A program made the translations under genes and the position numbers. A stretch of 53,164 nucleotides of DNA from Candidatus Sungbacteria bacterium RIFCSPLOWO2_01_FULL_47_32 (lineage in GTDB: Bacteria; Patescibacteriota; Minisyncoccia; Sungbacterales; GWA2-42-14), in assembly GCA_001820685.1 (NCBI GenBank), contig MHQP01000014.1:1-53164 (forward strand), in the 5' to 3' direction. This document shows positions 15,278-17,438 of this stretch, in pieces (position 1 is the first letter of the stretch; every line of letters starts with the position of its first letter). The notes under the pieces were generated by a model. It saw only the letters and a list, made by a program, of their open reading frames with translations, was not told where the DNA came from and did not search any database.

Positions 15278-16054
15278 TTAAAGTTTTAAGAGCGGCGCTT
15301 CCCAACCGAAACACGTCTCTTTGTCTTTTAACATTTTGAATGCTTTTGTGCAGGAGGCATTAAGTTTTGCATATTCTTTAAGCACCTGAACAGTTTCTTC
15401 AATCAGACCGCCGACGGTACCGTCGGAATCATCAACACCGCTTCGGCAAAGTTTGTCATCAAGCCTCAAGAGCAAATCAATGAGTAATTTTGCGGTTTGT
15501 TCGCTCACCGGCAATTCTGAAATGATTTTTGACAAACGATTGCATCCTTCCGAAAGAGAACTCTGGTATGAAAACCAAATTCGGGAAGGTCCATTATATG
15601 GCTTAATATATTTCATGGCGCCAGTGATTGATTTTTTTACTGCGGATAACCCGGCGTTACTTAATTCTTCCAACCGGCCACTGCAAGTGGCTTGAGAAAC
15701 GAGCTGCTTATCCTTCTCACTCAATTTTTTACCATCCATCACCGCATGAATTGCTACCGCCACCATATGTTTACAAAGCGTATCATTCTGACCAAGATAG
15801 CATTCGCAATGACCGTAGTCATAGCGGCGCGCCTCCACTGAAACTCGATACGGTTTTGTGCCCAGCACTATAGCTGAATAGTTGCCGATACCCTCTTCGA
15901 TCTGTGTTACTTTTCCATACTCGTATAAGCCAACTGCCTTTTCAAAAGTCAGCCTGTCGGTTGCAAATTTAATTTTATCCAAATCATATGAAGGCTTCAT
16001 AAAATTTACTTGGGTCGAATCCAAGAAACGAGCGGCGCTAATGTTCGAACGCAT
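15278..16054 (-). CDS. SWIM zinc-finger protein
   Basis: 258 residues from the ATG at 16054. The SWIM motif CxCx(8)CxH is intact (C83, C85, C94, H96), preceded by 'YDYGHC'. SWIM domains bind zinc and usually DNA or proteins; the C-terminal 130 residues are helical and not recognised. A GTG-started frame reaches 16129, but its first codons would overlap the 3' part of the interrupted tRNA-Gln, so I prefer an internal start; another candidate is the ATG at 16000 (MKPSYDLDKI). Confidence 0.75.
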   Translation of the reverse strand: MRSNISAARFLDSTQVNFMKPSYDLDKIKFATDRLTFEKAVGLYEYGKVTQIEEGIGNYSAIVLGTKPYRVSVEARRYDYGHCECYLGQNDTLCKHMVAVAIHAVMDGKKLSEKDKQLVSQATCSGRLEELSNAGLSAVKKSITGAMKYIKPYNGPSRIWFSYQSSLSEGCNRLSKIISELPVSEQTAKLLIDLLLRLDDKLCRSGVDDSDGTVGGLIEETVQVLKEYAKLNASCTKAFKMLKDKETCFGWEAPLLKL

Positions 16055-16125
16055 CCTAGTCGCCTTAGCGACGTAGGCGTCTCGATCTCCTGAATTAGCA
16101 TGTGCTGACTGCGGGACTTGGATTT

Positions 16126-16313
16126 TCACCCCGTTAGATACAGCAATATAATATTTAATATACTTCCAAGCAGCGCTGCGGGACCTGGATTCGAACCAAG
16201 ATACCCGCCTCCAGAGGGCGGTGTCCTACCGTTAGACGATCCCGCAGCGCTGCCAACAAGACAGAATCTCTGAAATAATTTCTCTACATTTAATTTTAAG
16301 CATCTAACGGGGC
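16126..16313 (-). mobile_element. 188-bp insert with terminal inverted repeats carrying a complete tRNA-Gln
   Basis: The ends are TCACCCCGTTAGATAC and, inverted, TCGCCCCGTTAGATGC (14 of 16 match), so an 11-bp perfect helix CCCCGTTAGAT/ATCTAACGGGG can close the insert. It lies exactly between TTC and AAAT of the outer tRNA T-loop. The only gene inside is tRNA-Gln(CTG). No transposase is encoded, so it is a MITE-like or intron-like unit; the type label is tentative. Confidence 0.6.
16176..16246 (-). tRNA. tRNA-Gln (anticodon CTG), complete
   Basis: 71 nt including discriminator G. Acceptor TGCGGGA/TCCCGCA, anticodon stem CCGCC/GGCGG with loop CTCTGGA, T arm CTTGG-TTCGAAT-CCAGG. No CCA encoded. 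The leader GCAGCGCT pairs with the trailer AGCGCTGC, extending the acceptor helix by 8 bp. Charging is probably indirect through Glu-tRNA and GatCAB, since gatB is in the window. Confidence 0.95.
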
Positions 16314-16380
16314 GAACCAAGATACCATGCTCCAGAGGCATGTGTCCTACCATTAGACGATCCCGCAATACGTAAACTAT

Positions 16381-16483
16381 GTTAGAGGTTCACCAACGTC
16401 TTTCGTATATGAAATACCGTAAGGCGAAACCGCCTTTGGCTCACAATAATTTTAATAAACAAAAAGAATCTTTAACCTCTAAC
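16381..16483. repeat. 103-bp element with 10-bp perfect inverted ends
   Basis: GTTAGAGGTT (16381-16390) and AACCTCTAAC (16474-16483) bound a non-coding segment directly upstream of the interrupted tRNA-Gln. The GTTAGA core recalls the ends of the 188-bp insert. Confidence 0.55.
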
Positions 16484-16544: not shown

Positions 16545-17438
16545 TTAAACTCTCAAGTACCGGTGCACCGCGATAAAGCTTGAAAAAACTCCGAGAACAA
16601 CTCCAACTCCGATAAGAATTCCACCGAACTGAAGCAGATGTTGCTGATAATACACATGCATATCAATAGATGGGATCACGACAAGGAGCTTGGGAGAAAC
16701 AACCCAGAGAACCGGATAGAAAAGTATAGCGGCAAGGCCCCCGGACGCAATTCCGTGCATAACACCTTCAAACAAGAACGGCCCGCGGATGAACCATGAG
16801 GAGGCCCCGACAAGGCGCATGATATTTATTTCTTCCCTGGCTGACCAGATAGCAATGCGAATTGTGTTGAACGCAACAAGCATGGCAATGGCCGCAAGAA
16901 CAAATATGACGGCAAGTCCGGAATTCCTCACGCCCGCCAAAATTCCGGAGAGGCGGTCGATGACAACCTGATTTTCGTAATAGTTGATCTTATCAACGAT
17001 AGGATATTTTTTATTCTGAAGATAATCGGCGACATCCTGGAGTTTTGTCGGGTCTTTTGCTTTGATATTCAACGTTGCTTCAAGCGGATTTTGGTCAAGC
17101 TCTCCCAACGCATTGATGATGGTTGCGTCATTTTTATGACGGTCTTTGAATTCCGCAAGTACTGCGTCCTGTGAAATATAAGAAACTTCTTTTACGTCGC
17201 TCAATGCCTCAAGACTGTTTTTGATATTCATAATGTCGGACTCGCTCGAATTCGGATAAAAATACACGGCGATGTCTATTTTCCCTTCAAGGTCTCCGAG
17301 AACAACCTGTGCCGCAACCCCCATCAAAATGAGCCCACCAATGACAAACAAGGTCAAGGTCATGACTAAAATGGTGGCGGTTGAAAGCCAGCCGTTCCTC
17401 ACGAACGATACCCAGCTGTTCTTGATAATGCGCTTCAA
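16545..17438 (-). CDS. ftsX: Cell division protein FtsX
   Basis: 297 residues, four membrane helices: one near 20-42 and three after residue 170. The extracytoplasmic loop between the first two (about 55-165) is the ECD that in other bacteria contacts peptidoglycan hydrolase activators. 'IMRLVGASSWFIRGPFLFEG' is the conserved segment after the second helix. FtsX forms the FtsEX complex with the ATPase encoded upstream, linking septal hydrolysis to division. The gap to ftsE is 139 bp of A/T-rich direct and inverted motifs, longer than the usual overlap. Confidence 0.96.
   Translation of the reverse strand: MKRIIKNSWVSFVRNGWLSTATILVMTLTLFVIGGLILMGVAAQVVLGDLEGKIDIAVYFYPNSSESDIMNIKNSLEALSDVKEVSYISQDAVLAEFKDRHKNDATIINALGELDQNPLEATLNIKAKDPTKLQDVADYLQNKKYPIVDKINYYENQVVIDRLSGILAGVRNSGLAVIFVLAAIAMLVAFNTIRIAIWSAREEINIMRLVGASSWFIRGPFLFEGVMHGIASGGLAAILFYPVLWVVSPKLLVVIPSIDMHVYYQQHLLQFGGILIGVGVVLGVFSSFIAVHRYLRV

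Follow-up and report, generated by a model that had tools for sequence, protein, structure and literature searches.

A tRNA-Gln gene nested in a split tRNA-Gln gene of a Sungbacteria genome, and hairpin-ended tRNA cassettes in Patescibacteria

A tRNA-Gln(CTG) gene of Candidatus Sungbacteria bacterium RIFCSPLOWO2_01_FULL_47_32 is split in its T-loop by a 188 bp insert that carries a second, complete tRNA-Gln(CTG) gene. The insert is one member of a large family of short elements with inverted ends, and tRNA genes nested in tRNA genes are recurrent in Patescibacteria. With a probability of roughly two in three, we read such inserts as hairpin-ended cassettes that carry a replacement tRNA, disrupt a resident gene of matching isotype and assume its role. 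A short DNA cassette, with a complete tRNA between inverted ends starting YCCC, would insert into the same-isotype resident gene, break it, and persist only because its own tRNA can replace the broken one. The resident halves would then be dead, decaying DNA, and the cassette tRNA, now essential, would be open to later invasion, giving Russian-doll nests in a host that has become dependent on the cargo tRNA. The mover of the tRNA-free elements of the family would also move the tRNA-carrying versions, with survival filtering the tRNA insertions.

The split tRNA-Gln locus and its counterparts in relatives

The window (the whole stretch of DNA analysed, 53,164 nucleotides of contig MHQP01000014.1) carries the locus on the minus strand. 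The 5' half of the outer (resident) tRNA-Gln(CTG) spans 16313..16367 (55 nt), from T1 at 16367 to TTCG of the T-loop. The insert, which is the whole cassette including the TGAA beside its right end, occupies 16125..16312, and the outer 3' half (16109..16124, 16 nt) resumes at 16124 as AATCCAAGTCCCGCAG and consists of T-loop AAT, the 3' strands of the T-stem and acceptor stem, and G73 at 16109. The initial annotation had placed the split one base off, at 54+17 nt, but its total length and exact join stand: the halves join to 71 nt with no base lost and with full acceptor- and T-stem pairing, as it had also stated, and ARAGORN calls the product tRNA-Gln(ctg). When the 3' half was swapped for random 16-mers, that call was still made in 5 of 300 trials.

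The cassette ends, CCCCGTTAGAT on the left (16302..16312) and ATCTAACGGGG on the right (16129..16139, followed by TGAA), are perfectly inverted across 11 bp, in agreement with the inverted ends described earlier for a 188 bp insert. The inner tRNA-Gln(CTG) is complete (16176..16246; ARAGORN; Rfam, 57 bits), and its acceptor stem is extended by a 5' arm GCAGCGC (16247..16253) and a 3' arm GCGCTGC (16170..16176, the first base being the inner G73). The sequence GCAGCGCTGC is present exactly twice in the window, and similar extended stems occur in the relatives G005 and G003 (G000 denotes the genome of the window, other G numbers its relatives and L numbers loci). Through the extension the insert in its entirety forms one long hairpin holding a tRNA, and the fold of a 271-nt stretch is better than that of shuffled sequences by 6.3 SD.

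The upstream neighbour, ftsX (16545..17438, minus strand), served as synteny anchor. Between it and the outer tRNA-Gln lies an inverted-repeat element of about 103 bp (16381-16483; GTTAGAGGTT ... AACCTCTAAC). This element contains a AAGGCGAAACCGCCTT palindrome and seems to be a decayed representative of the cassette's family that carries no tRNA. An open reading frame at 15278-16129 (minus strand) has an apparent SWIM-type zinc-finger stretch and no Pfam match; its true start is probably further downstream, because the listed GTG start adjoins the outer tRNA 3' half.

The uninterrupted allele that the initial annotation expected in siblings is present in G001, where an unbroken tRNA-Gln(CTG) sits at the same place next to ftsX and its 5' part matches the G000 outer gene over 58 bp at 98%. 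Judged from this gene, the outer tRNA-Gln is the ancestral copy and the insert arrived later. Intact tRNA-Gln genes occupy the ftsX-linked site in G018, G009, G010, G006 and G012 as well, and the T-loop split with the same ends is found in G000, G005 and G016. The T-loop of the G008 gene is split as well; there the ends are different ones (CCCCCACACTCA/TGAGTGTGGGGG) and the 3' half is gone. G003 holds a more eroded version. The G016 locus has its 3' half in two copies, and the outer genes of G005 and G016 have decayed at acceptor or T-loop positions. Inner and outer acceptor types are unlike in G016 and G008; in G005 the inner gene is identical to the outer over the compared parts. A stretch of G005 beside the inner tRNA-Gln and within the split outer one (L042, 1456-3866) carries a serine recombinase, a DNA methylase fragment and an HTH_Tnp_1_2 open reading frame, and is read as a secondary insertion.

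The relatives join ARAGORN and Rfam in bearing out the originally described arrangement, a tRNA-Gln split in its T-loop around a complete tRNA-Gln(CTG). Misassembly of the contig at the split, a concern raised at the outset, is excluded by independent genomes and by G008, a complete single-contig genome, which also show nests; at this locus, chance and misassembly are excluded by the unbroken gene of G001 and by the split that recurs in G005 and G016.

Inverted-repeat elements and nested tRNA genes

Searches for the family looked for the ends CCCGTTARA...TYTAACGGG at most 90 bp apart, with the reversed pattern as control. Paired ends were found in 20 of 23 genomes of the order, with up to 36 per genome, against 0 for the control, and most copies are without a tRNA. 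In a public genome collection, a stricter end pattern had Patescibacteria plus Omnitrophota, Planctomycetota, Deltaproteobacteria, WOR-3 and others among the matches listed. Identical 4-bp flanks border 71 of the 193 elements in the loci analysed, versus 16.8 expected from shuffling, lengths of 3 or 5 being almost absent; the commonest duplications are TTCA, TGAA, TTTA and TAAA, and the tRNA-free elements prefer TTYA/TRAA targets. This duplication, which is the signature of a transposed element, flanks 70 of 159 tRNA-free elements versus 1 of 34 tRNA-bearing ones. The latter have junctions of the form YYYG/CCCC...GGGG/TRAA in either orientation (slashes mark the junctions), and their inverted ends vary between nested cases, starting CCCC or TCCC. 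Near-identical element copies occur at distant loci of G008.

The mover would most likely be a trans-acting transposase shared with tRNA-free elements of the same ends, although the search for a transposase or nuclease of the cassettes found none, and no nuclease in the short cassettes. A scan of the complete genome G008 for such ends paired 0.2-4.5 kb apart has so far led to no transposase gene. Mobilisation of the RAYT/REPIN kind was rejected, the elements being unassociated with Y1_Tnp genes: G016, despite its 36 elements, gave no match to Y1_Tnp, and few of 30 Y1_Tnp loci have the element ends nearby. A viral vehicle was likewise rejected, since among viral contigs a single one has a paired element of this kind, and that element contains no tRNA.

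Between the commonest ends, a tRNA-like core was found in 40 cassettes from 31 of 384 genomes of the class (reversed control, 0), and reading the flanks of 30 of these class-wide cassettes revealed broken tRNA genes around them. The outer tRNA is split most often in the anticodon loop; the T-loop, D-loop and variable region are occasional sites. Host isotype was assessed by comparing the flanks with a tRNA panel from which the inner gene itself was removed (34 rows, two of them duplicates), and the best flank isotype agreed with that of the inner gene in 33 of 34 rows; in the sole exception, L123, the outer part still shows anticodon CAC, as does the inner gene. Double nests at L130, L338 and L339 indicate repeated rounds of insertion, and three more nested cases were found in other classes of the phylum. 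A nested tRNA-Val was also seen in a MAG labelled Spirochaetia (L147, 429-539), where either a Patescibacteria contig has been mis-binned or the phenomenon extends to a second phylum.

A test independent of the ends took 260 bp on each side of the 32 tRNA genes of G000 and asked that halves of the gene's own tRNA score at least 28 on both sides. Seven of the 32 (Phe, Thr-TGT, Asp, Ser-TGA, Cys, Pro-TGG and Gln) lie within both own-isotype halves; mismatched comparisons gave 2 such cases in 992, each pairing tRNAs of one amino acid. Relaxed criteria add further genes, Lys among them. The Lys, Thr-CGT, Ala-TGC and Arg-CCG genes of G000 look like decayed nested cases. By flank reading, about ten native tRNAs of the complete genome G008 are nested (Tyr, Thr-TGT, Thr-CGT, Gln, Val-GAC, Val-TAC, Met, Asp, Ile and perhaps Asn). 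In this genome the automatic both-halves score discriminates less well (7% on-diagonal versus 2% off-diagonal), its background being raised by a dense tRNA array. That array (G008:C1:439820-442718) holds about 20 tRNAs, mostly with encoded CCA ends, unlike most other G008 tRNAs, and looks acquired.

Fate of the outer genes and origin of the inner ones

The only tRNAs found in G000 for Gln, Asp, Phe, Cys and Lys are nested inner ones, the inner copy being the single tRNA-Gln gene detected there (the Lys gene is labelled 'tta' by ARAGORN). Outer copies are often truncated, without an anticodon or interrupted by further hairpins; of 31 class cases tested, 17 have an outer gene that can be recognised over its full length and 14 do not. 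On the strength of these sole copies and of the outer decay, the inner tRNA is taken to be the working gene.

For tRNA-Ala(CGC), 9 of 9 outer genes are closer to another genome's inner gene than to their own. Lineage A (GGGCCTATGGTCTAGTGG...) lies inside an outer gene of lineage B (GGGCTCATAGTAAAA...) at L117, L134 and L150, and the roles are swapped, with B inside A, at L249 and L120. This pattern points to exchange between genomes, not local duplication, and from it we infer that the cassettes move between genomes. Relations between inner and outer genes of other isotypes are mixed. For Asp and Lys of G000, the inner gene does not differ from the outer in the parts compared, and the Asp copies share 14 nt of 3' flank as well. 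These pairs and the G005 Gln pair indicate that genes are also copied locally or converted at a later stage, and given their identity these inner genes could be local copies.

On reading the flanks of the class-wide matches, essentially no tRNA cassettes were noticed outside tRNA genes. This near-absence suggests targeting or homology and counts against random transposition plus survival, which would not predict it; simple transposition of the tRNA cassettes would be a conjecture, and one weakened by the finding of the 4-bp duplication at only 1 of 34 tRNA-bearing inserts. Homing would account better for the lack of free cassettes: a nuclease would cut the resident tRNA at the anticodon or T-loop, repair would proceed from a cassette-bearing donor allele, and the inverted ends would be structural relics. 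The reciprocal invasion of tRNA-Ala lineages A and B and the alike loop positions of inserts in distant genomes (Ala, Thr) fit such a process. Inside the ftsX-linked tRNA-Gln remains of G003 (L047, 1690-2500), a broken open reading frame with a LAGLIDADG-like stretch, LRGLYEAEGSF, adjoins an inner tRNA-Gln with a 9-bp acceptor-stem extension. That frame has no Pfam match and was counted as a hint of a homing endonuclease at most, the short cassettes show no nuclease, and elements that have nothing to do with tRNAs carry identical inverted ends. We regard homing as unlikely.

Still less probable is copying in place. Here replication or repair would write a copy of the local tRNA gene into the insert, either after a hairpin element has settled in a tRNA loop or through template switching that the hairpin itself induces. 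The identical Asp pair of G000 with its common 3' flank and the G005 Gln pair are what such copying would leave, and the extended acceptor stems resemble fold-back synthesis. The identical pairs could also be explained by later gene conversion, however, and most inner genes are clearly unlike their own outer gene, as the Ala outers and the differing acceptor types in G016 and G008 illustrate. L150 and L249 are among several candidate young insertions in which a divergent inner gene would lie in an otherwise undecayed outer one; such a case would argue against a local template.

The suggestion of the initial annotation that the insert is a new kind of tRNA intron, spliced from the outer transcript so that both tRNAs are made, does not hold up and is very improbable: the halves join without a lost base in the window and also for tRNA-Asp of G000, but the same cassette ends lie in many outer tRNAs that lack anticodon bases or a half or have extra insertions, the insert position varies among the anticodon, T, D and variable regions, and the G005 and G016 homologues have decayed. 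With 17 of 31 outer genes recognisable end to end, splicing cannot be the general purpose, and outer-gene decay argues against a general splicing role, also one as archaeal-type bulge-helix-bulge introns. An Rfam scan of the window and a permissive scan of related loci returned tRNAs only, with no group I or II catalytic RNA fold, and together with the outer decay led us to reject an intron as general explanation.

Comparison with known elements and significance

Transfer RNA genes are usually regarded as vertically inherited and hard to displace. Under the replacement-cassette reading, a large share of the tRNA genes in several genomes are apparently second- or third-generation occupants of their locus. 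Such turnover would explain why Patescibacteria have odd tRNA acceptor types and why phylogenies of their tRNAs are patchy, and nested tRNAs would cause false annotation of 'missing' or 'split' tRNAs. It would also be a case of a mobile element converting a lethal insertion into dependence. A wider proposal, which we put forward tentatively and at somewhat less than even odds, is that these are selfish tRNA genes: cassettes would spread horizontally among Patescibacteria, breaking same-isotype residents and becoming indispensable, repeatedly and in both directions between lineages. If true, this would amount to a gene-drive-like turnover of the cell's most conserved genes. In the open-licence literature, no relevant paper was found on nested same-isotype or split tRNAs, or on MITEs, in Patescibacteria.

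The cassette resembles a MITE in being short and non-coding, with terminal inverted repeats and no gene of its own, and in having tRNA-free relatives with 4-bp target duplications and near-identical copies. It differs in carrying a complete tRNA gene, and the fixed-length target duplication of MITEs is seen at 1 of 34 tRNA-bearing copies. Integrative elements that target tRNA genes (tyrosine-recombinase islands and phages) insert at tRNA loops and leave the host with an intact tRNA. The cassettes would likewise target tRNA loops and let the host retain an intact tRNA, but they are only about 90-190 bp long, have no integrase, contain the whole tRNA and leave the old gene broken on both sides; the 188-bp insert of the window has no recombinase gene and no room for one. 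Intron-free homing endonuclease elements of fungal mitochondria bring a replacement piece of the gene that they break. As with those elements, insertion into an essential gene would be tolerated because the newcomer supplies what was lost, whereas the cassettes would replace a whole RNA gene, have no confirmed endonuclease, are bacterial and involve many isotypes.

Like group I introns of bacterial tRNAs, the cassette interrupts a tRNA gene in a loop, but it shows none of their RNA structure, and in many cases the outer tRNA is beyond rescue. An integron attC site was rejected, the cassette ends (GTTAGAT ... ATCTAAC) being in the reverse of the RYYYAAC ... GTTRRRY core-site order. Rickettsia palindromic elements (RPEs) and REP/REPIN sequences are also small hairpin repeats that sometimes lie within genes; the cassettes differ from them in having no RAYT link, in their tRNA cargo and in same-isotype nesting. 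In-frame protein-coding insertion of the RPE kind was rejected for the family, since the insert length is a multiple of three in 18 of 51 elements inside open reading frames (no bias), though single in-frame cases exist. One in-frame element, at about 1500-1570 of L054 (G015), lies within a trigger-factor-like gene and adds HPVRSQMPEAPADPPADRTSNGV. The loci L141-L260 contain tRNA-free elements with CCCCGTTAGA ends in many phyla, often directly after a start codon (ATGAA followed by CCCCGTTAGA), so that the proteins would start MNPVR.
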